64,000 bases of DNA from Hyphomicrobiales bacterium. Its GTDB lineage: Bacteria; Pseudomonadota; Alphaproteobacteria; Rhizobiales; NORP267. Both the position numbers and the translations under genes were made by a program. The notes below the pieces were generated by a model. That model had not been told where the DNA came from. It ran no database searches and saw only the letters and a list, made by a program, of their open reading frames with translations. This document shows positions 752-13,717 of the stretch, piece by piece. Position 1 is the stretch's first letter, and every line of letters starts with the position of its first letter. The stretch spans positions 62,001 through 126,000 of the forward strand of contig JAJFHA010000007.1 in assembly GCA_021775875.1 (NCBI GenBank). The letters are read 5' to 3'.

Positions 752-1612
752 ATGATTGAAGCAGACCCACTGAAAAAAATATTGCTCAGGGCACCCGGTG
801 CAATTGTCCAGGTTCAGCAGGATGTGACAACGCAATGGCAATCTCTGAATTATTTGCGGGAGCCGGATCTGGCCGCCGCCTCAGCTGAGCACGAAACCCT
901 TGCCTCAATAATCAGAAGCGCTGGTGCAGAAATCATCTATGCCGACAATGGCGATAACCTGTCGCTGGATGCGGTTTATGTCCGGGACGCGGCGTTGCCA
1001 TTGCCGTCAGGCATGTTGCTGGCCCGGATGGGCAAAGGGGCCCGGCACCGGGAGCCTGAAAGCCTGCGCACAATATTTGAAGCGCACAATATCGCGATTG
1101 TCGGTGCCATCGAAGCTCCCGGCACCCTGGAAGGTGGCGATTGTCTCTGGATAGACGCAAAGACGCTTCTGATCGGGCGCACCTGGCGCACCAACCAATC
1201 GGGTATCGATCAAGTGGCCGAGATATTGGGCGACGATTATCGGGTCCTCGGGTTCGATATGCCAAATTATAAAGGTGCCAATGACGTCTTCCATCTGATG
1301 TCGGTGCTAAGCCCGATCAACGCCCGGCTGGTTGTTGGATATCCGCCTCTCATGCCAGTCGCCCTGGTGAAATTCCTGCACGCGCTGAATATGACGATCC
1401 TGCCGGTGGCGGAGATCGAATTCGAATCCATGGGGTGCAATATTCTGGCCCTTGGCAATGACCAGGTGATCCTGCTTGAAGGCAACCCGCTGATAAGCAT
1501 AGCGCTAAAAAATGAGGGAATTATCGTCCACGAAACCGCCGGAGATCATATCAGTCATCCGGGTCAGGGCGGACCCACCTGCCTGACATTACCGCTTATC
1601 AGAGAAAACTGA
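752..1612 (+). CDS. dimethylarginine dimethylaminohydrolase (DDAH)-like amidinohydrolase
   Basis: A 286-residue guanidino-group-modifying enzyme. Family landmarks are visible in order: DAVYVRD near residues 73-79, the EGGD substrate-binding motif at 127-130, a catalytic-type His at about 181 in NDVFHL, and a C-terminal Cys in GGPTCLTLPL that would be the thiol nucleophile. The Asp/His/Cys set suggests an active hydrolase acting on arginine or methylated arginine, releasing citrulline plus ammonia or methylamine. The length (DDAH about 255-285, arginine deiminase about 400) favours DDAH. It stands alone, with no arc or citrulline genes nearby. The substrate (arginine versus dimethylarginine) is inferred and not visible. 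Confidence 0.8.
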   Translation: MIEADPLKKILLRAPGAIVQVQQDVTTQWQSLNYLREPDLAAASAEHETLASIIRSAGAEIIYADNGDNLSLDAVYVRDAALPLPSGMLLARMGKGARHREPESLRTIFEAHNIAIVGAIEAPGTLEGGDCLWIDAKTLLIGRTWRTNQSGIDQVAEILGDDYRVLGFDMPNYKGANDVFHLMSVLSPINARLVVGYPPLMPVALVKFLHALNMTILPVAEIEFESMGCNILALGNDQVILLEGNPLISIALKNEGIIVHETAGDHISHPGQGGPTCLTLPLIREN

Positions 1613-1614
1613 CT

Positions 1615-2697
1615 TCAAGCGCCAGGGCGAGCCACCGGCAACGGGACTTCGCTAAATGAGCGCACAGCCATGCCAGACGGCAAAGGCCCGGGCCGCAAAT
1701 CAGGCATTGGAACATTTGACAGCATCGCCACAAATTGCCGCGCATTCCGGTCAAGTTCATACGGATCGGTGCCGGCCCGATACCGACGACCGCAGACAAC
1801 CGGCCCCATATGAACCGGACGGGTGCCAAGACTCGGCATCCGCATAAATCGTTCGACACTAACAGGCAAAGCAAAAGAAGCCGTCGCCACCGGGTTGATC
1901 CAGGCATTCTGGAACCCAAGCTCCAAATTGGTCGTCGCGATATCCGCCCGCTGACCACCGGATGCCGCGCCAAGAACAACAGCAATCAATTGCCGCCCGT
2001 CGCGCGTAGCGCTGGCCACAATATTATACCCCGAAGCACAGATGAACCCGGTTTTCATACCATCCGCACCGTCAAGTGTGCGTAGCAAACTATTGTGTGA
2101 CCGCAAATTTCGACGCCCGAGGCGAAATGACGGCATACTGAACATTTCATTATATTCAGGAAATTGCTGGATGATCGTGCGTGCCAACAGAGCCTGATCC
2201 CGCGCCGTTGTCACCTGCGTTTCAGCCGGCAACCCGTTCGGGTTCACATAATGCGTCCCGGCCATACCAAGATCGAGCGCGACGCGGTTCATTTCCGCAA
2301 CAAAATCTTCCACGCTGCCCGATACATGCTCCGCCAACATATAGGCCACGTCATTTGCTGATTTGATAATCAATGCCTGGAGTGCTGTTTCCATCGGAAT
2401 CGTAACGCCGGTTGGCAAGCCAAGCTTGCTGGCCGGCTGGGCTTGGGCCAGCGGTGTGTTTCTAACCCGGGCTTCCAGATTTGTGCGCCCTTCGCGGATC
2501 GCCCTGAAGGTCAGGTAAGCAGTCATTAATTTGGTGAGAGACGCCGGAAACCAAGGGTCAAACGCGTCTTCGGAATAGAGCACGCGACCTGAGCTGACAT
2601 CCATAACGAGCAAAGGCCCGGCGTTAACCGGGCTTGTGAAAATGATCAGGCAAATTGCCAATAGAAAGATCCGGAAAATACGCAACACTCGCCTCAT
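1615..2697 (-). CDS. D-alanyl-D-alanine carboxypeptidase (peptidase S11, penicillin-binding protein 5 type)
   Basis: Serine D,D-carboxypeptidase trimming peptidoglycan pentapeptides in the periplasm. All three active-site motifs are present in order: SLTK (nucleophile Ser), SAND (SxN) and KTG in GMKTGFI. The N-terminus from the ATG at 2697 is a clear Sec signal: basic MRRVLRIFR, hydrophobic core, then PVNA before GPLLV. The ORF track starts 17 codons earlier at a TTG, which would put extra basic residues before the signal, so the ATG is preferred. The C-terminal region is Pro/Arg-rich and lacks an obvious membrane-anchor amphipathic helix. It converges on the DDAH-like gene with only 2 bp between stops. 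Confidence 0.88.
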   Translation of the reverse strand: MRRVLRIFRIFLLAICLIIFTSPVNAGPLLVMDVSSGRVLYSEDAFDPWFPASLTKLMTAYLTFRAIREGRTNLEARVRNTPLAQAQPASKLGLPTGVTIPMETALQALIIKSANDVAYMLAEHVSGSVEDFVAEMNRVALDLGMAGTHYVNPNGLPAETQVTTARDQALLARTIIQQFPEYNEMFSMPSFRLGRRNLRSHNSLLRTLDGADGMKTGFICASGYNIVASATRDGRQLIAVVLGAASGGQRADIATTNLELGFQNAWINPVATASFALPVSVERFMRMPSLGTRPVHMGPVVCGRRYRAGTDPYELDRNARQFVAMLSNVPMPDLRPGPLPSGMAVRSFSEVPLPVARPGA

Positions 2698-2902
2698 GAT
2701 TTTTGTCTGGCGTAACCTTTTCCGCAAATATCTGCAAGATGCAAACAATTCAAATATCCAAAATCAACACGCTGATCAGGCCTGAAAATCCTGCTAATCC
2801 CGGATTTTAGGCCATTTATCCCGGTTGACATAACAGAGCCTGCGCTAAAAAATGTTGCGCGGGTTCTTCAAACAAAATCGCAGAAACCTGACGGAGGAAA
2901 AC

Positions 2903-4219
2903 ATGCTAAGCGCAGAGCAGAACAAACAAATCACCGAGATTGGCCCCGGCACCCCGGCAGGCAAACTGTTGCGCAATTATTGGCAACCCGTTGCCCTTGT
3001 TGAAGAACTTGAAACCACCCGCCCGGTCAAATATGTGCGCATGTTCGGCGAAGACCTTGTTCTCTTCAAAGGTGAGGACGGCCGCTACGGATTGATGGAC
3101 CGCCATTGCCCCCATCGCGGTGCCGATCTTTGTTTCGGACGGCTTGAAGATGGCGGCCTGCGCTGCCCGTTCCACGGCTGGTTGTTTGATGTGGATGGCA
3201 ATTGTCTGGAGATGCCGGCCGAGCCGCCAGAGCGCAAATTCCATGAAAAACTCAAAGCCACCGCCTATCCGTGTATTGCCCGCAGCGGCATTATTTTTGG
3301 CTATCTGGGTGAAGGCGACGCACCGCCCCTGCCGGCATTTGATTGCCTCGATGCGCCGGAAGATTACACTTTCGCCTTCAAAGGCCTCAACGAATGTAAC
3401 TGGTTGCAGGCGGTTGAAGTTGGCATCGACCCGGCGCACGCATCTTACCTGCATCGTTTCTTTGAAGATGAAAATCCGGAAGAATCCTATGGCAAACAAT
3501 TTCGGGATTCGGTTGCCGGTTCCGGGATCCCGGCCACAAAGGTGCTGCGGGAATATTCGCGTCCTTCAATCAATGTCGAAGAAACCGATTCAGGCCTGCG
3601 GCTCACGACGCTTCGCGAACTTGAGGGCGGCCAGACCCATGTGCGGATCACAAACCTTTTATTCCCGAACGCCTTCACGATCCCTATGTCGGAAGAAATG
3701 AACATCACTCAATGGCACGTGCCGATTGATGATGTAAGCAATTACTGGTTCGCCATCTTCACCAGCTTTGGCGATAAGGTGGACCGCAAAACCATGCGCG
3801 CCCAACGGCTCGAATCCTGTTCCTTGCCGGACTATATTCCGTTCCGCAACAAGGCCAATAATTATGGTTTTGACATCGAAGAGCAAAAAACTTCGACCTA
3901 TACCGGCATGGGCCTGGACATCAACACCCATGACCAATGGGCGGTTGAATCTCTAGGTGCCATCCAGGACCGCACCCAGGAACATCTCGGCACCAGCGAT
4001 ATCGGGATCACCAAATACCGCCGCCAGCTCCTTGGCGCCATGCAAACCATGGCAGATGGTGGCGAGGTTAAAATATCAAGAACCAACGGCCACGAACTGC
4101 GCGGACCCGTCGCCATTGATGCCATCGCACCAAGCGACAATTGGGCCTCAAGTTGGAAAGAAGCCGATTTGAAGCGTCGGGAAAAATCTGGTTGGGCAAA
4201 AGACCCCTGGCAATCATAA
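2903..4219 (+). CDS. Rieske non-heme iron oxygenase, alpha subunit (phthalate dioxygenase/LigX-like)
   Basis: A 438-residue oxygenase component. The Rieske [2Fe-2S] ligands are C69-x-H71 and C88-x2-H91 (CPHRGADL and CPFHGW). The mononuclear iron triad begins at D176-x2-H179-x4-H184 (DPAHASYLH), preceded by the bridging region NWLQAVE. The start is set by GGAGG seven bases upstream of the ATG at 2903; the tracked ORF begins 17 codons earlier without such a site. Such proteins need a reductase, and none is encoded nearby. The next gene, 24 bp downstream on the same strand, is a glutamine-synthetase-like ligase, so the two are probably co-transcribed. Phthalate-type family members hydroxylate aromatics or remove O- or N-methyl groups; the substrate is unknown. 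Confidence 0.88.
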   Translation: MLSAEQNKQITEIGPGTPAGKLLRNYWQPVALVEELETTRPVKYVRMFGEDLVLFKGEDGRYGLMDRHCPHRGADLCFGRLEDGGLRCPFHGWLFDVDGNCLEMPAEPPERKFHEKLKATAYPCIARSGIIFGYLGEGDAPPLPAFDCLDAPEDYTFAFKGLNECNWLQAVEVGIDPAHASYLHRFFEDENPEESYGKQFRDSVAGSGIPATKVLREYSRPSINVEETDSGLRLTTLRELEGGQTHVRITNLLFPNAFTIPMSEEMNITQWHVPIDDVSNYWFAIFTSFGDKVDRKTMRAQRLESCSLPDYIPFRNKANNYGFDIEEQKTSTYTGMGLDINTHDQWAVESLGAIQDRTQEHLGTSDIGITKYRRQLLGAMQTMADGGEVKISRTNGHELRGPVAIDAIAPSDNWASSWKEADLKRREKSGWAKDPWQS

Positions 4220-4243
4220 TCCAGCAACAGACGGGCAAGTAAA

Positions 4244-5698
4244 ATGGTATTAACAGGCAGCAAAGCCGGTGGGTTTATAGAAAAATTTGGCCTTTGGAGC
4301 GACGAGCAGAAACGACTTGCCGGCGATATAACAGCGCGTATCGAACGCGATGGGTTGCACTCGATCCGGTTTTCGTTCCCCGATCAACACGGTATCCTGC
4401 AAGGTAAGACGGTTATGACCGCTGGCCTGAAAAGCGCGTTTTCAGCGGGCATTTCCATGACCACCACCCTGCTGGCAAAAGATACCTCCCACCGAACCGC
4501 CTATCCTGTATTTTCGTCAGGTGGCGGTTTCGACATGGACGAAATGACCGGGGCCGGGGATTTTATCATGGTCCCGGATCCATCTACGTTTCAGGTTTTA
4601 CCATGGGCAGAAAAAACCGGCTGGATGTTGTGCGATATATATTTCGGAACCGGCGCGCCCGTGCCCTTTTCCACCCGCCATCTTTACAAGCAATCACTGG
4701 ATAAACTGAACAATTCCGGGTTTGACCTGATGTCCGGGCTCGAAGTGGAATTTCACCTCTTTGTTCTTGAAGACCCGCATTTGAACCCGGAATCAAGCAC
4801 CCACCCGGCGGCGGCACCAGACGTGAGCCTGGTGACCCATGGCTTTCGATATCTGACCGAAAATCGCTACGACCAGCTCGAACCGGTGCTTGAAATCATC
4901 CGTTCCAATCTGGCGCAGCTCGACCTCGAACCACGCACCATGGAAGTGGAATTTGGTCCCAGCCAGGTTGAGATGACATTTGCGCCGTCAACCGGGGTGG
5001 CCGCAGCTGACCGCATGATCCTGTTCCGCAGCGCGGTCAAACAAATTGCCCGGCGGCACGGCCTGCACGCCACTTTCATGTGCCGACCCGGATTGCCGAA
5101 CCTGTTCTCGTCCGGCTGGCACCTGCACCAATCGCTGATTGATATGAAGACAGGCGCCAACGCATTCGTCCCGGAAAATGATGCGTTATTGTCAGATATG
5201 GGCCTGAATTATATGGGTGGCATTCTGCAACATGCTCGCGCCGCATCCGTCTTCACAACGCCTACCATCAACGGCTACAAGCGCTTCCGTCCCAATTCCC
5301 TCGCGCCCGACCGTATTGTCTGGGCCAAGGACAATCGTGGCGTGATGGTGCGCGTCATCAGCGATGGAGGTCCCGCCACCAGAATTGAGAACCGGATCGG
5401 TGAACCCGCCGCCAACCCCTATCTATATATGGCGTCTCAATTGATTGCAGGTATGGATGGAATCAAGCGCAAAACTGATCCGGGCCAACCAACCGAAACA
5501 CCCTATCAGGCCGACGCAACACCCCTCCCCCACGATCTGATGGAGGCGGTTGCCGCACTCCGCGACAGCGATCTGTACCGCGAACAATTCGGCTCAGTTT
5601 TCATTGATTACCTGATCACCCTGAAGGAATTTGAAATATCCCGCTTCCTTTCCGAAGTGACAGATTGGGAACACCGCGAATATTTTGATATCTATTAG
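4244..5698 (+). CDS. glutamine synthetase-like gamma-glutamyl ligase
   Basis: A 484-residue member of the glutamine synthetase superfamily, probably ligating glutamate to an amine with ATP. Catalytic landmarks are intact: GLEVEFHLF (metal-binding Glu pair), EFGPSQVEMTF (metal-binding Glu), SGWHLHQSL (metal-binding His), an NSLAPDR Arg and RIENRIGEP (Glu plus substrate-binding Arg). The order matches the GS fold. Assimilatory GlnA is normally about 470 residues with a Tyr adenylylation site and lies beside glnB. Here there is no glnB, and the partner is a Rieske oxygenase. That context, recalling gamma-glutamylanilide synthase in aniline oxidation and PuuA in polyamine use, suggests an amine-activating catabolic role. 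This is inference. Confidence 0.82.
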   Translation: MVLTGSKAGGFIEKFGLWSDEQKRLAGDITARIERDGLHSIRFSFPDQHGILQGKTVMTAGLKSAFSAGISMTTTLLAKDTSHRTAYPVFSSGGGFDMDEMTGAGDFIMVPDPSTFQVLPWAEKTGWMLCDIYFGTGAPVPFSTRHLYKQSLDKLNNSGFDLMSGLEVEFHLFVLEDPHLNPESSTHPAAAPDVSLVTHGFRYLTENRYDQLEPVLEIIRSNLAQLDLEPRTMEVEFGPSQVEMTFAPSTGVAAADRMILFRSAVKQIARRHGLHATFMCRPGLPNLFSSGWHLHQSLIDMKTGANAFVPENDALLSDMGLNYMGGILQHARAASVFTTPTINGYKRFRPNSLAPDRIVWAKDNRGVMVRVISDGGPATRIENRIGEPAANPYLYMASQLIAGMDGIKRKTDPGQPTETPYQADATPLPHDLMEAVAALRDSDLYREQFGSVFIDYLITLKEFEISRFLSEVTDWEHREYFDIY

Positions 5699-7192: not shown

Positions 7193-8527
7193 TCATACCA
7201 ACGCCGTTCGTATGCCGATCTGTCTGTGCGCCAAATATGCCGACCAGAAAGGCCAGATGATGAATACAATAAGTACAGCAAGAGCTGCCCCAGACAGCCC
7301 CAGCCATGGAACAAAAATGGTGTTGCCCAGCACGAGAACGACAATGCTGACGGCAAAAACTGGCAGGCAATGCTTTTCCTGACCCGTCAGGGTAAGAACT
7401 TGGGTAGCTGGTCCTGCCGCAGCTCTCAGGACCTGTGCGAGCATGAGCAAGAGAAGACACCCATAGCCCGCTTTGAATTCTTCTCCAAATAATCCGAGCA
7501 AGTCTGACCCGAACGCATATATCAGGGCAAACGACACAATGCTTCCAGCAAGCGTCACCGCATTTGCATTTCGGATTATTGAGCGCACTTGGACCAACTC
7601 CGCGCTCTGGAGAGCGTCAGCGGTGTCTCGTAAAATCAGTTGATGAACAGCTTGAATGGCGAACCCGACAAGAAGGGAAATCTTCAGGCATACGCCAAAT
7701 ATTCCGGTCTGCGTTCCATCAAGGAAAAACCGGGATACCACTATGGTCAAGTCTGCAAATACTCCGATGAACAAACCTGCCAACACTAGTGGCACGGCCC
7801 GTCCTCGCCAATCAGCAACGAATTCTGGTTTAGGCACAGAACCTTGTGCGGTGCCAAAGCTTGAAATTGGGTTTCCGTCCGTGACGCGCCACAACTGCCA
7901 AACAGCAATTATAGTAGCAATTGCTCCATTGGCGATGAGAACGGCTTGAATGCTCATCTGCTCCCAGAAGAACCACAATGCCAGGACAAACAGGAGCAGA
8001 CAAAGAGGGCGCACAAAAAGTTCAGGTAAAAAACCGAGTTCAAACCGCTTCAGCGCATTGGCCAACGCCCCGTTGAGGCGCAAAAATGCAAACGCAGGCA
8101 GCATTAGGGCGGCAAAAAACAGACTATCGCGCGTACTTTGCATAATATTTGGCAACAACATCCCGCCAACAATCAACAGCCCTAAGGCAGCAACGCACAG
8201 AACAAACGTGTCCAAACGTGCACGTGCCATAAATTTTGGTAACAGTGAATTGTCTGCTCCCGCTGCAGATTGCGCGGCAATTTTAGGGACTAGGGCTGGA
8301 TAGCCCATAGTGCAAACGATGGAAAGAATTGCCGCACAGCCCGTGGAGAAGAAAAATAGCCCGATATGTTCCGCGCTCAGGAATATTGCAAGAAGCATCT
8401 GGATTAAGATGCCCAATGCCGCCCCAGCTATCCTTGCGCCAACAACCATGCTTGACGAGCGGAGTAATGAATATCTCTTCAGCGGTTCGCTGATTGGTCG
8501 TGGTTCACTCATGCCGCGATCGCCCAT
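7193..8527 (-). CDS. Wzx/MATE-superfamily polytopic exporter (flippase-like)
   Basis: A 444-residue integral membrane protein with about 12 hydrophobic segments spread evenly along the chain. The beginning (RSSSMVVGARIAGAALGILIQMLLAIFLSAEHIGLFFF) resembles polysaccharide flippases of the MOP superfamily. It is the last gene of a five-gene minus-strand operon, 10 bp after the Ldh2-like gene. Charged segments are few and no cytosolic domain is attached. An internal ATG at 8512 (MSEPRPIS) is an alternative start. No glycosyltransferases are nearby, so export of a small molecule or peptide made by the four upstream enzymes is as plausible as lipid-linked sugar flipping. The function is inferred from fold and context only. 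Confidence 0.75.
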   Translation of the reverse strand: MGDRGMSEPRPISEPLKRYSLLRSSSMVVGARIAGAALGILIQMLLAIFLSAEHIGLFFFSTGCAAILSIVCTMGYPALVPKIAAQSAAGADNSLLPKFMARARLDTFVLCVAALGLLIVGGMLLPNIMQSTRDSLFFAALMLPAFAFLRLNGALANALKRFELGFLPELFVRPLCLLLFVLALWFFWEQMSIQAVLIANGAIATIIAVWQLWRVTDGNPISSFGTAQGSVPKPEFVADWRGRAVPLVLAGLFIGVFADLTIVVSRFFLDGTQTGIFGVCLKISLLVGFAIQAVHQLILRDTADALQSAELVQVRSIIRNANAVTLAGSIVSFALIYAFGSDLLGLFGEEFKAGYGCLLLLMLAQVLRAAAGPATQVLTLTGQEKHCLPVFAVSIVVLVLGNTIFVPWLGLSGAALAVLIVFIIWPFWSAYLAHRQIGIRTALV

Positions 8528-8536
8528 TTCTGGTTC

Positions 8537-9607
8537 TCAGGCTCCTACCGCAGCAGTCTTGACAGTCCAGGGGGTCGAAACGTTCAGCTTCCTGCAAACC
8601 GATTCAACAGCATTCAGAGTGTCGCCCGAAAGCCAGACGCCCTCTCTCATGCTGCGGTTGTAGTTGCGCCAGCGGATTTCACCGGGCAAAAGCACTTCAT
8701 CTTGAGGGTTTGACGCTTTGATGAGTGCTGTAAGATGATTCAGCCGGGACTTAAATACCTCCAATGGCATGAAACATGAAATATCCAGGGCAATCATAAA
8801 ATGCCCATTCTGCCCTGGTTCGGTGACGTCCTGATACATCGAACCAACATCATCTGACACGCCGGCACCGGTGAGAACGCCAGCCAAAATCTCTACCAGA
8901 AGTGAAAGGCCATATCCCTTGGCACCCGCAGCGGGAAGAAGTGCCCCACCCGAAACTTTGGCCGGGTCTGTAATCGCACTGCCATCTGAGTTAATTGCCA
9001 GCCCTTCAGGCAATGACGAACCGCTAGCGATATATTCGCGCACGGTTGACCCGGCGAGTGCGCTCGTGGCCATATCGAAAAGCAGGCTCTCGCCATTTTC
9101 GCGAGGAGCACCAAAGGCAAGCGGATTTGTGCCAAGCACAGGTGTCAAACCATTATGTGCCGTGACCTTCGGGAAGGAATTACTCATGACCAACCCAATC
9201 ATTTCTGACTTTGCGGCTTGATTTACAAAAAACGCGCCCGTTCCAAAAAAATTGCTGTTTCGGACTCCAACCGACCCGACACCATTGATCCGCGCGATTT
9301 CAATCGCCCGGTCCATTGCGAGACCTGCGGCAAACTGGCCAAACCCACCGTCCGCATCAAGGAGTGCTGCAGACAGCGAAACGTCCTTGAATTTAGGCAC
9401 GCACGGAGTATTTAGACCCCCTTGTGCAACCCGCTCTAGATAGATTGGCAAGCGAAGCAAGCCGAAATTTTCACGACCGACGAGCTCGCTCCACACCAGG
9501 TTATCTGCGACACTGGTTGCCTGGAGATCATCTACACCTCCAGCTTTCAATATGGTCAAACACAATTCATGCAAGCGCTTGTGTTCGATAAGAATGGGCT
9601 CCTTCAT
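8537..9607 (-). CDS. Ldh2/malate-lactate dehydrogenase family protein lacking the usual active-site histidines
   Basis: A 356-residue member of the NAD(P)-dependent Ldh2 family (malate, ureidoglycolate, sulfolactate and cyclic imino acid reductases). The fold markers are present: LRLPIYLERV (Arg52, Tyr56), GTNPLAFGAP, and AKGYGLSLLVEILAGVLTGA near residues 230-250. Two positions are odd. Where relatives read DSHG, this protein reads ENFG (Phe48). Where relatives read NSxHFG, it reads NSNFFG (Phe120). Both histidines are thus replaced in otherwise normal motifs, with codons TTC and TTT and an intact frame. Its ATG overlaps the stop of the upstream ATP-grasp gene (ATGA), so translation is coupled. 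It may reduce an unusual keto or imino substrate, or have a non-redox role. Confidence 0.85.
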   Translation of the reverse strand: MKEPILIEHKRLHELCLTILKAGGVDDLQATSVADNLVWSELVGRENFGLLRLPIYLERVAQGGLNTPCVPKFKDVSLSAALLDADGGFGQFAAGLAMDRAIEIARINGVGSVGVRNSNFFGTGAFFVNQAAKSEMIGLVMSNSFPKVTAHNGLTPVLGTNPLAFGAPRENGESLLFDMATSALAGSTVREYIASGSSLPEGLAINSDGSAITDPAKVSGGALLPAAGAKGYGLSLLVEILAGVLTGAGVSDDVGSMYQDVTEPGQNGHFMIALDISCFMPLEVFKSRLNHLTALIKASNPQDEVLLPGEIRWRNYNRSMREGVWLSGDTLNAVESVCRKLNVSTPWTVKTAAVGA

Positions 9608-10833
9608 AGTCTGCCCCAGATTGCTTTGTTTACGAGAGACCCGGCAGAGCCGATAGATGGCTTCAGGTCATCTCGATCGAAGACCGGACTGATATTCGAA
9701 TGTCCGGAGAGGCTTTTCAGCCAGCCTGAAACGGAGAGCTGATTTAAACGTCTCAACTGCATAAAGGAGAGAAAATCTCTTAGCGGATACCAATAGTACA
9801 AGTTGGATTCGTAAGTTGTGAAGGTCGGAGCCTGCTGTCCGGTCAAAGCGCAATAGACAATTAAATCTAAGGGAGCGCCAGTGCGGATCGCCAGTTCCTG
9901 AGCTGCGGTAAATCTCGCATTGACCTCAATCACCTTCAGCACGCCATCGCGCGGGTCCTTTTTGAATTCTATATTCCCAAAGCCCTGAAATCCGGTATTT
10001 TGGAAAAACTTCAATCCTTCCTGCGCTGTCTCCGGCAACCAGTCCGATACGTGATATGTGGCGCCGCCACTATTGACCGGGTAGCGCCGGACTATCCGTT
10101 TCGTAAAGTGAAACAGGGGCTGACCAGTCTCATCTATATAGGTGTAGTAGCTGCTGAGAAGATCATCCGGTCCAGGAATCTGTTCAACGACTGACACATC
10201 GAATCCGGCCTCGTGGGCGATCTTAACCTTCGCTTCCAGATCTTCGAAATTCGTGGTGACAGTGAAGAATTTACACCCGAACACTTGGGCAAACTTGAAG
10301 GTATTTAACGGTTTTACCAGCAGTGGAAACTGGGCACCGTCAAAATTTTGTGGCCGTGTAGCGCCTCGCGATACCGGCCAGAATTGCGGTGCTGCGACAC
10401 CAGCCCGGGAAGCCATCTTCAGTGTTTGTTGTTTGTCAAGTAAAGCTAACTTTTGCGAGGCGGAGGCGGGATCAAAAAGGTGCCGCTTCCTTAATACTGC
10501 TTCGTGGGTGGCCAAAAATTCAAGAGCATTGTCACAACCTGGCAAGATCACATGTTTCTGTTGCACAGTCGGCTGTTCACCAAGAAGAAGTTCACCCCAG
10601 GCGTCGGCCAGTTGCTTCTCCCTCGCGACTGAAAACCGTTGCTGGCAATAACGAGAATATAGCCCCCAGCAATCGGCCTTGCCGCTTACCCTGACTGTGA
10701 TACCCGTACGCCCGAAGCTCCGGCACAATGACAAGGAATTTTCTTTGCCACCCAATATGAGAACGGGGATTGAGGTGTCTATTGCAAGATCACCGTAGGC
10801 GCCATTTTTTCTTGTTATTGTATTATTTTTCAT
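9604..10833 (-). CDS. ATP-grasp ligase, carbamoyl-phosphate-synthase-like (carboxylate-amine ligase)
   Basis: A 409-residue ATP-grasp enzyme. Residues 20-110 form a pre-ATP-grasp Rossmann-like domain (VLILGGKENSLSLCRSF; HVILPGCDNALEFL). LVKP at 172-175 supplies the ATP-binding Lys, VVEQIPG at 215-221 the adenine-binding segment, NIEFK at 287-291 the first Mg ligand, and EVNAR at 303-307 the second. The family forms amide or ester bonds through acyl-phosphates. This subtype often occurs in polysaccharide or peptide-modifying clusters as a carboxylate-amine ligase. It lies 10 bp after the other ATP-grasp gene and overlaps the Ldh2 gene by 4 bp. The substrates are unknown. Confidence 0.85.
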   Translation of the reverse strand: MKNNTITRKNGAYGDLAIDTSIPVLILGGKENSLSLCRSFGRTGITVRVSGKADCWGLYSRYCQQRFSVAREKQLADAWGELLLGEQPTVQQKHVILPGCDNALEFLATHEAVLRKRHLFDPASASQKLALLDKQQTLKMASRAGVAAPQFWPVSRGATRPQNFDGAQFPLLVKPLNTFKFAQVFGCKFFTVTTNFEDLEAKVKIAHEAGFDVSVVEQIPGPDDLLSSYYTYIDETGQPLFHFTKRIVRRYPVNSGGATYHVSDWLPETAQEGLKFFQNTGFQGFGNIEFKKDPRDGVLKVIEVNARFTAAQELAIRTGAPLDLIVYCALTGQQAPTFTTYESNLYYWYPLRDFLSFMQLRRLNQLSVSGWLKSLSGHSNISPVFDRDDLKPSIGSAGSLVNKAIWGRL

Positions 10834-10843
10834 GTGGCGTTTC

Positions 10844-12004
10844 CTAGGCGGCGATACCGGCAGATTTTGTAAACTGTGCCTTTGGGAGTTGAGCTTTGTT
10901 AAGCTCAGGTGGAGCCACGTCGCCGAGATGCATTACACCTTGATGAGCGCTGAACATATAGTCCAGAACAAGCTCTGCAACAGGGCATTTTTTGGTTTTG
11001 TCCGATACCAGATAATGGTGATGGATGCCTGGAGTTGTATTGATCTCGGTGATCAATCCGTTTTCTTGACCAAGGGGATTAGAAATATCCCGGCACATAA
11101 CGTCCAGGCCTGCAAATTTAATCCCTAATTTGTTCACGAGTTGAGCGCCGGATGAGATCGTATCGGGATGGACCTCGTTGGTCACATTGTGATTACGAAG
11201 GCTACAGTTTTCATTGACCGCTTGTTTGAGTTCAAAAATTCGATCAAGTTCCAGGCAACTCCTGACGGTAACACCATCCTCGCGCAGTTTGTTCTGGCAG
11301 TCGCGGTCAATTTTCAGTGGGCTGAGAGCCACAAATGAATCACCCTTCAAGCGGCGCTTGTTCTCCTGTGAGACGAGCTGGCGGATTGTGCGTTTCCCAT
11401 CGCCAATAATGACGGGCGGGTCACGTCTGACGGCGTCGACAAACTGCCCATTGAAATATAGGAGCCGAAATGAACCGCCTTGGAGCTGTTCTTCAACGAT
11501 GAGATCGGTATCAAAGCTAGCGGCAAGCCGGGCTGCTTTGCGGAGGTCGCTACGGGTTGTAATTCCCGTTGTAACCCCGCGGCCGCCCCCAGTTCCACTG
11601 GCTGGTTTCACAACCACCGGGGAGCTGCATCCATCGAAAAACGTTTCGCATGATCCAAAGTCTGCCATTTGAAAATGACGGTGTTTGGGGACCCGATAGC
11701 CCAGTTCCGCCATAAGATGGTAGACCATCAGCTTGTTACCGGCGATGTCTAGTGACAAATGATCATCAAGCATTACGCTCCCGTGCTTGACAAAGGTCGA
11801 CCAGCCACCTTTTGAAATTCTGGCAAAACCAAAACCCCAATCGGCATACTCGGCTTCAACGGCTGTGGCGGCCTGCTGCCAGAGTTCCCGATAGAAATCC
11901 TGACGCAGTTGCTTGAACTTCATCAGTTGCACCAGACCCGGCACATCGAGATAGAACTGTGATCGATAAGCGAGACGCTTGATTTGCTCAGTGACGAGAC
12001 GCAT
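10844..12004 (-). CDS. ATP-grasp ligase related to cyanophycin synthetase/glutathione synthetase
   Basis: About 386 residues from the ATG at 12004. The tracked ORF begins 25 codons earlier and would overlap the upstream gene by 46 bp, so the internal start is preferred. The ATP-grasp core spans roughly residues 100-350: PVVVKPASGTGGGRGV (ATP-binding Lys and Gly-rich loop), DLIVEEQLQGGSFRLL, RRDPPVIIGDGKRTI (a signature shared with cyanophycin synthetase) and ITEINTTPG (Mg-binding Glu and Asn). The first 90 residues are basic and unrecognised. The cyanophycin synthetase N-terminal and Mur-ligase domains are absent, so it is a stand-alone ligase, probably joining an amino acid or peptide. It is the second gene of the operon. 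Confidence 0.85.
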   Translation of the reverse strand: MRLVTEQIKRLAYRSQFYLDVPGLVQLMKFKQLRQDFYRELWQQAATAVEAEYADWGFGFARISKGGWSTFVKHGSVMLDDHLSLDIAGNKLMVYHLMAELGYRVPKHRHFQMADFGSCETFFDGCSSPVVVKPASGTGGGRGVTTGITTRSDLRKAARLAASFDTDLIVEEQLQGGSFRLLYFNGQFVDAVRRDPPVIIGDGKRTIRQLVSQENKRRLKGDSFVALSPLKIDRDCQNKLREDGVTVRSCLELDRIFELKQAVNENCSLRNHNVTNEVHPDTISSGAQLVNKLGIKFAGLDVMCRDISNPLGQENGLITEINTTPGIHHHYLVSDKTKKCPVAELVLDYMFSAHQGVMHLGDVAPPELNKAQLPKAQFTKSAGIAA

Positions 12005-12033
12005 TTTTTGCCTGCTGCTTGTGTAATAGGTGT

Positions 12034-12804
12034 CTAGTCGAACGTACAACCGTCTGCTTTCAGTTGTGAATCCACCCAATCGTTCGAAAAAATGCCGCGC
12101 TTGACATCCTTAATGTACTTTTTCATTTGGGCCTGGTGGGCCGTAAGCTTAAGAATTGCGCTGTGAACGAAGTGTCTTGCAACAACCACGACACCGCTGC
12201 TGTCGGCGGAGATCAAATCTCCCGGATTGACCACAATCCCACCGCAGGTGATTGCAAAGTTTAGTTCGCCGGGGCCCCGGTGGAGTGGACCAAAAGAAGT
12301 AACGCCCCGTGCATAAACCGGCAATCCGGTTTCCTTGACCCCGTCAAGGTCGCGAATAAGGCCATCGATTACAAAACCGGCGATGCCCCGATGGAGCGCT
12401 TTGTTGGCAATCAGATCACCAAAGACTGCGTTTCTGTCGCTGCCGCTGGTGTCTACAACTACGACATCTCCGGGTTGGGCTACATCAAGCGCTTTGTGCA
12501 GCATCAGATTGTCGCCAGGGTACAACTTGACCGTGATCGCGGGCCCCACAAGAGGCTTTTCGTTTACAAGGTTCCTGATGGTGTGATGCATGGTGTACAT
12601 ACGGTTGAGAAGATCAGAAATATCGGTTGTTTCAAACTTGCGGAAAACTTCGATAAGTTCTCTTGTCGGTCGGTCAATCTCCGCTCGAATCTGGAACCCC
12701 ATTCCAGGAGTCATTTCGGCCGATTTCGGCTTTGTTTGAATTTTTGTCCTCTTCCCCGGATTTGGGCGAAAATCAGTGACACGAGTATTGTTTTTTTGAC
12801 GCAT
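12034..12804 (-). CDS. RraA-like family protein (2-oxo acid aldolase/decarboxylase fold)
   Basis: A 256-residue member of the RraA/HMG-CHA aldolase family. Conserved elements: TTDISDLLNR near 60, LVGPAITVK at 85-93, PGDVVVVD at 111-118, FGDLIANKALHRGIAGFVIDG at 128-148, the catalytic-type Arg151-Asp152 pair in LIRDLDGV, and NPGDLISADSSGVVVV. Known members cleave 4-hydroxy-2-oxo acids or decarboxylate oxaloacetate; others only inhibit RNase E. AAGGA nine bases before the ATG at 12804 supports this start, giving an unusual 35-residue basic N-terminal extension. It leads the five-gene operon and may supply or consume a small 2-oxo acid used by the downstream ligases. That role is inferred. Confidence 0.83.
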   Translation of the reverse strand: MRQKNNTRVTDFRPNPGKRTKIQTKPKSAEMTPGMGFQIRAEIDRPTRELIEVFRKFETTDISDLLNRMYTMHHTIRNLVNEKPLVGPAITVKLYPGDNLMLHKALDVAQPGDVVVVDTSGSDRNAVFGDLIANKALHRGIAGFVIDGLIRDLDGVKETGLPVYARGVTSFGPLHRGPGELNFAITCGGIVVNPGDLISADSSGVVVVARHFVHSAILKLTAHQAQMKKYIKDVKRGIFSNDWVDSQLKADGCTFD

Positions 12805-13630: not shown

Positions 13631-13717
13631 TGGTGCCCCCGGGGAGACTCGAACTCCCACGCCCATACAGGCAACAGATTTTGAGTCTGTCGCGTCTACC
13701 AGTTCCGCCACAGGGGC
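13631..13717 (-). tRNA. tRNA-Leu (anticodon CAA)
   Basis: An 87-nt class II tRNA including an encoded CCA end. The acceptor stem GCCCCTG pairs with CGGGGGC followed by discriminator A. The D arm contains GGCGGAACTGGTAGACGC. The anticodon stem CAGA/TCTG holds the loop CTCAAAA, whose middle bases CAA read UUG leucine codons. The long variable arm and T arm (GGGAG-TTCGAGT-CTCCC) follow. The 3' end points towards the remnant frame and the ATP-grasp operon, the usual side for integrative elements. No duplicated 3' end was spotted by eye further left. Confidence 0.96.

Follow-up and report, generated by a model that had tools for sequence, protein, structure and literature searches.

Catalysis in the Ldh2 family has been described for AllD, the (S)-ureidoglycolate dehydrogenase of E. 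coli, in which His116 is the proposed general base (PMC3527362). The AllD variants R48A and H116A showed no activity, and H44A lowered kcat/Km from 54.3 to 0.10, a loss of about 500-fold (PMC3527362). The authors described both histidines as invariant family-wide and suggested that every member relies on one of the two, with Thr156, Pro158, Asp174, Lys224, and Gly306 as the conserved NADH contacts other than the two histidines (PMC3527362). The active-site role that the first-pass annotation had given for this histidine pair agrees with that study, which assigns both residues to catalysis in AllD.

We analysed a 64,000-nucleotide stretch of alphaproteobacterial DNA (the window) that carries an Ldh2 gene in which both positions encode phenylalanine. 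The focal gene and its altered sites are:

8537 to 9607, minus strand: Ldh2-family oxidoreductase, the focal gene (Pfam Ldh_2, PDB relatives, and fold match)
9464 to 9466, minus strand: codon of Phe48, at the position of AllD His44 (alignment)
9248 to 9250, minus strand: codon of Phe120, at the position of AllD His116, the proposed general base (alignment; PMC3527362)
9167 to 9175, minus strand: codons of the clade-specific Phe145-Pro146-Lys147, beside the substrate-contacting Ser and Asp of AllD (Asp141 = Phe145, Met143 = Lys147)

The open reading frame encodes 356 residues and its translation reads ...GRENFGLLRLPIYL... and ...GVRNSNFFGTG..., with ENFG at residues 46-49 and NSNFFG at residues 117-122. 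Phe48 and Phe120, called at these codons in the first pass, were borne out by the translation. The alignment further equates Asn47 with AllD Ser43, Arg52 with Arg48, and Tyr56 with Tyr52. Alignment to the solved relatives and AllD showed no displaced or alternative active-site histidine near Phe48 or Phe120.

The focal protein matched Pfam Ldh_2 (PF02615) over its full length (E 8.8e-97, profile positions 2-331 of 333), and its PDB relatives were 1vbi, 1v9n, AllD, 2x06 (sulfolactate dehydrogenase), DpkA, and YiaK. The cluster orthologues were used to build an AlphaFold model, in which confidence was low near the cofactor site (pLDDT under 50 for residues 145-153, 181-187, 225-236, and 243-266). 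It matched 27 structures at E values of 0.001 or better, all of them Ldh2, the best being 1vbi (E 3.5e-29, TM 0.76). The protein fell under every curated NCBIfam equivalog cut-off among the Ldh2 subfamilies tested, scoring 234.1 bits against a cut-off of 356 for PRK15025, 222.6 against 496.2 for AllD, 219.7 against 500 for sulfolactate dehydrogenase, 153.2 against 336 for PRK10098, and 110.7 against 316 for PRK13260 (3-dehydro-L-gulonate 2-dehydrogenase). Judged from its sequence, it is an Ldh2 protein by descent that lies outside the published catalytic definition of the family (PMC3527362). The window genome encodes a second Ldh2 paralogue, which retains both histidines (LCHSHG and MFHIA), and a scan of genome contigs from a single sequence returned two ordinary Ldh2 loci only. 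A pseudogene was ruled out by the intact reading frames of the focal gene and its partners.

Related genomes were searched using two proteins of the cluster described below, Ldh2 and ATP-grasp 1. Orthologous Ldh2 genes were found in 13 other genomes, 12 from the same order as the window and one (G976) from another order of the class. The clade therefore comprised 15 Ldh2 sequences, the window protein and 14 orthologues; counts over 14 clade rows leave out G976, which is added separately. Across the 15 sequences the second site, equivalent to His116, was always aromatic (14 Phe, 1 Tyr), and the first, equivalent to His44, lacked histidine in 14 (11 Phe, 2 Tyr, 1 Gln, 1 His) and was not invariantly aromatic. 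The 14 rows paired the first and second sites as Phe/Phe in 11, and as Tyr/Tyr, Tyr/Phe, and Gln/Phe in one each; G976 was His/Phe. Both of the histidines published as invariant were thus absent from 14 of the 15 proteins, and the fifteenth lacked the His116 equivalent only. Chance or sequencing error was ruled out, as 14 orthologues share the second-site change and 13 of those 14 also lack the first histidine.

The comparison set was 113 other Ldh2 proteins, which were the matches to the focal protein within the class and order and are a sample of the family. These were paired His/His in 94 cases, His/Asn in 11, His/Ala in one, and His/Ser in one; five lacked both histidines (two Val/Ala, and one each of Gln/Asp, Gln/Gly, and Cys/Thr), and one row was cut at the first site. 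Ordinary Ldh2 enzymes with phenylalanine at these sites would have undercut the first-pass observation, and Phe or Tyr at either site occurred in none of the 113. A frequent substitution across Ldh2 was ruled out on this basis, although non-aromatic double loss does occur. The Ldh2 proteins with such non-aromatic replacements (L078, L079, L119, L122, and L125) were separate from the clade.

An earlier tree used all alignment columns. When the signature columns were taken out, all 15 proteins grouped as a single branch (bootstrap 100, SH-aLRT 99). Residues that distinguish the clade include R45, N47, F145, K147, G186, S187, and T188, among which Asn47, Phe145, and Lys147 are clade gains around the substrate site. 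Phe145 was present in 13 of the 14 clade rows versus 1% of the 113 others, and Lys147 in 13 of the 14 rows and in G976 versus 0%. At 47-70% identity, conservation of the clade Ldh2 proteins was similar to that of their cluster partners.

The first-pass annotation also described the neighbouring residues as kept, which held for Arg52 and the cofactor contacts. The equivalents of the AllD NAD(H) contacts Thr156, Pro158, Asp174, Lys224, and Gly306 and of the substrate-binding Arg48 (Arg52 here) were invariant in all 14 clade rows. Tyr56, however, was kept in the window protein and varied across the clade (5 Tyr, 4 His, 3 Leu, 1 Gln, and 1 Phe). Variation at this position is expected, since the hydrogen-bond partner of Tyr52 in AllD, His116, is gone.

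The focal gene is the fourth of five on the minus strand, in the order RraA-like, ATP-grasp 2, ATP-grasp 1, Ldh2, flippase. Its neighbours are:

12034 to 12804, minus strand: RraA-like aldolase/decarboxylase, first gene (Pfam RraA-like, E 3.5e-47)
10844 to 12079, minus strand: ATP-grasp ligase 2, cyanophycin-synthetase-like (NCBIfam cya_phycin_syn, E 9.9e-52)
9604 to 10833, minus strand: ATP-grasp ligase 1, CPSase-like (NCBIfam PRK12767-type, E 2.7e-8)
7193 to 8527, minus strand: Wzx/Polysacc_synt-type flippase, last gene (Pfam matches of its orthologues)

The RraA-like protein exceeded the cut-off of NCBIfam PRK06201 and matched PDB 3noj, a 4-carboxy-4-hydroxy-2-oxoadipate aldolase (E 2.7e-40). 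It carries Asp130-X20-Arg151-Asp152, with D130, R151, and D152 invariant across 12 homologues; we take Asp-X20-Arg-Asp to be the metal/substrate motif of HMG/CHA aldolases. ATP-grasp 2, whose start is uncertain (TTG at 12079 or ATG at 12004), matched cyanophycin synthase 7lgm (E 2.2e-40) and has conserved GTGGGRGV and EINTTPG motifs. The model of ATP-grasp 1 (pLDDT 87) matched the folds of ATP-grasp enzymes, including L-amino acid ligases, and its ATP-grasp residues were conserved across 15 homologues. Its gene overlaps that of Ldh2 by 4 nt. The window copy of the flippase gave no match in the Pfam search, while five of nine orthologues matched Polysacc_synt (best E 1.4e-8).

PADLOC returned no match for any of the five cluster proteins, and a defence system was rejected on that search. 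Promoter and terminator hits were no commoner than in shuffled sequence, and the Rfam search near the cluster found nothing except one tRNA (13634-13717, minus strand, RF00005, 56.8 bits), which lies some 0.8 kb upstream of the RraA-like gene and may be an integration point. Elsewhere in the window, 752-5698 on the plus strand carries three genes that look like a small catabolic operon of their own: one arginine-deiminase-like, one for a LigXa_C-like Rieske oxygenase and, about 25 bp from the oxygenase gene, one for a glutamine-synthetase-like ligase.

Eleven of the 13 other genomes had RraA, ATP-grasp 2, ATP-grasp 1, and Ldh2 in this order, usually with the flippase next, and several showed a 4-nt overlap between the Ldh2 start and the ATP-grasp stop codon. 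The flanking genes varied between genomes, so the core is a unit. Genome G003 had no adjacent RraA and an extra ATP-grasp 1. In G188 the Ldh2 gene was duplicated in tandem and ATP-grasp 1 lay several kb off. One G188 copy read NQG/SNFLAAA with K147 and the other NYG/SNFFGAA with N147; the copies (L169:8868-9932 and L169:10413-11441, both minus strand) thus differ in their sites and may form a heteromer. G976, which also has RraA and both ATP-grasps, encodes an Ldh2 (L190:9338-10375, minus strand) reading NHG/NSNFYG, in which the His44 equivalent is retained and the His116 equivalent is gone. Its neighbours were a glycosyltransferase, a GINT1-like protein, and a GNAT (Acetyltransf_6) protein. 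Beyond G976, no further orthologues were found among 385 genomes of the class, 399 of the phylum, and 126 of the G976 order, which marks the cluster as rare.

A GINT1-like gene (Pfam GINT1_N) lay near the cluster in G003, G188, and G976, three of the more divergent cases, with a second Polysacc_synt-type flippase in G003 and G188 and the glycosyltransferase in G976. These neighbours hint at a role in envelope glycans. Distant ATP-grasp 1 homologues (about 27% identity) adjoined distant flippase homologues at L184:8447-11068 (plus strand) and L185:9970-12730 (minus strand), where neither Ldh2 nor RraA was present and L185 was adjoined by a FemAB/GNAT-like gene; ATP-grasp and flippase genes are thus found together elsewhere as well. 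Immediately downstream of the cluster in G082 (L044:2834-8259, minus strand), a gene for a caspase-domain and FGE-sulfatase protein sat beside one for a large WD40 protein, and a caspase-domain gene lay near the cluster in G204 (L045:14621-16414). Among open-licence PMC papers we found none on this cluster. One match to RraA in a capsule locus was set aside, as rraA there was merely a boundary gene.

The sequences establish a loss of histidine in one conserved clade that keeps its cofactor residues and is linked to RraA, two ATP-grasp ligases, and mostly a flippase. Changed chemistry, an apolar substrate, and a non-catalytic role had been offered together in the first pass, and these are three separate claims. 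The last is disfavoured by the retained NAD site, carboxylate-binding Arg, and conserved new residues. The clade Ldh2 is probably not dead, and the partner enzymes retain their own catalytic motifs. As to apolarity, the conserved new Lys147 means that the pocket may not be simply apolar. Since the cluster relatives share the change, this undescribed cluster probably uses the enzyme for altered chemistry. In falling order of likelihood we would place C=N reduction, then C=O reduction with Lys147, and then a non-redox or C=C reaction, or a silent partner.

We favour, tentatively, an active NAD(P)H-dependent oxidoreductase of Ldh2 fold that has dropped the histidine acid/base, its likeliest substrate a C=N compound and its proposed outcome an amide-linked exported product or decoration. 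Redox activity, the C=N substrate, the order of steps, and the product are what we infer. The substrate would have no need of the acid/base catalysis of the family, which would have been dropped for that reason; the likeliest candidate is an imine or iminium that arises from an amine and a 2-oxo acid. The 2-oxo acid could come from the RraA-like aldolase of the cluster, and Arg52 would still hold its carboxylate. The nicotinamide face would be lined by Phe48, Phe120, and Phe145, which could stabilise a positively charged substrate, and any proton or hydrogen bond still required would come from Lys147 or Asn47. The two ATP-grasp ligases would then join the reduced product to other carboxylates or amines, and the flippase would move a small amide-linked metabolite or envelope-glycan decoration across the membrane. 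It is conceivable, if doubtful, that in Alphaproteobacteria the five genes form a biosynthetic module for a novel compound, amide-linked and exported, or for a novel surface decoration, with the Ldh2 fold turned into a reductase that can do without an acid/base residue.

The imine reading draws on the invariant cofactor contacts and Arg48 equivalent, on the single clade (100/99), on sequence conservation close to that of the cluster partners, and on the catalytic motifs kept by those partners. The Ldh2 member DpkA is itself an imine reductase (PMC6110843), and plant alcohol dehydrogenases without a proton relay reduce iminium and not aldehyde (PMC9828224); one of them, geissoschizine synthase, has Phe at one proton-relay position (PMC9828224). 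However, DpkA retains both histidines according to the AllD paper (PMC3527362), so imine reduction alone does not demand losing them. G976, outside the order of the window, keeps the first-site histidine. A cationic iminium would be disfavoured by a conserved Lys beside the site, unless that Lys is neutral; negative potential is described in imine-reducing sites (PMC7540600).

That same lysine is the core of a rather unlikely alternative, an ordinary 2-hydroxy/2-oxo acid dehydrogenase whose proton transfer would have moved to a new residue, most likely Lys147 (beside AllD Ser140/Asp141), with help from Asn47. The restriction of Lys147 to 13 of 14 clade rows and G976, against 0 of 113 others, speaks for it, as do the role of Lys as proton donor in beta-hydroxyacid dehydrogenases (PMC7540600), the retention of Arg52 and the cofactor site, and a neighbouring RraA-like aldolase that would make or use 2-oxo acids. 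However, one of the tandem copies in G188 has Asn at this site, and the changes at Phe145, Phe48, and Phe120 exceed the relocation of one proton donor.

One reading that appears improbable is of an Ldh2 without catalysis, which would bind NAD(H) or a carboxylate and serve the ATP-grasp ligase of the overlapping gene as its partner or sensor. Loss of the two proposed catalytic histidines and variability of the Tyr52 equivalent fit it, but the cofactor residues and Arg52 are invariant and the site has been rebuilt with conserved new residues, not merely degraded. The 4-nt start/stop overlap seen in several genomes would suit a partnership but indicates translational coupling only, and the G188 duplication with diverged sites fits a heteromer, yet ATP-grasp 1 sits apart from the Ldh2 pair there. 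We likewise give little credence to use of the nicotinamide without net redox (epimerisation, isomerisation, or transhydrogenation) or to C=C reduction, for although the NAD site is retained and the acid/base pair gone, plant ADHs catalyse 1,4-iminium reduction without a proton relay (PMC9828224), and a paper on the Veillonella malate-lactate transhydrogenase discusses Ldh2, no relative that combines this kind of reaction with the altered site was found.

On the alignment evidence, the clade is a real, conserved, and new version of the known Ldh2 family. It is a natural conserved exception to the rule of the AllD paper (PMC3527362), as both histidines are gone in most members and the cofactor site stays, which makes the catalytic rule of the family directly testable. 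It also points to a small gene cluster whose chemistry could be solved by expressing five genes.

Compared with known systems, the likeness of ATP-grasp 2 to cyanophycin synthetase is restricted to the ATP-grasp region of that much longer enzyme, and the cyanophycin gene set is absent alongside it. The plant medium-chain ADHs DPAS, geissoschizine synthase, and THAS have lost the relay, kept the cofactor, and reduce iminium (PMC9828224); their fold is unrelated to Ldh2, and the likeness is a functional analogy with no homology claimed. The type 2 malate/lactate dehydrogenase of Thermus thermophilus (1vbi, 1x0a) is the closest solved relative in both sequence and fold and, unlike the focal protein, has both histidines (SHG and STHFG). 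AllD (4fju, 4h8a, 1xrh) shares full-length homology and fold at about 32% identity in the fold match, and its Arg48, Thr156, Pro158, Asp174, Lys224, and Gly306 all have equivalents, whereas His44 and His116 are replaced by Phe, Ser43 by Asn, Asp141 by Phe, and Met143 by Lys. DpkA has the fold and family of the focal protein (E 3.3e-62) and carries out, in D-lysine degradation (PMC6110843), the imine chemistry proposed here; it does so with both histidines, invariant in the family alignment (PMC3527362), where the focal protein has neither.
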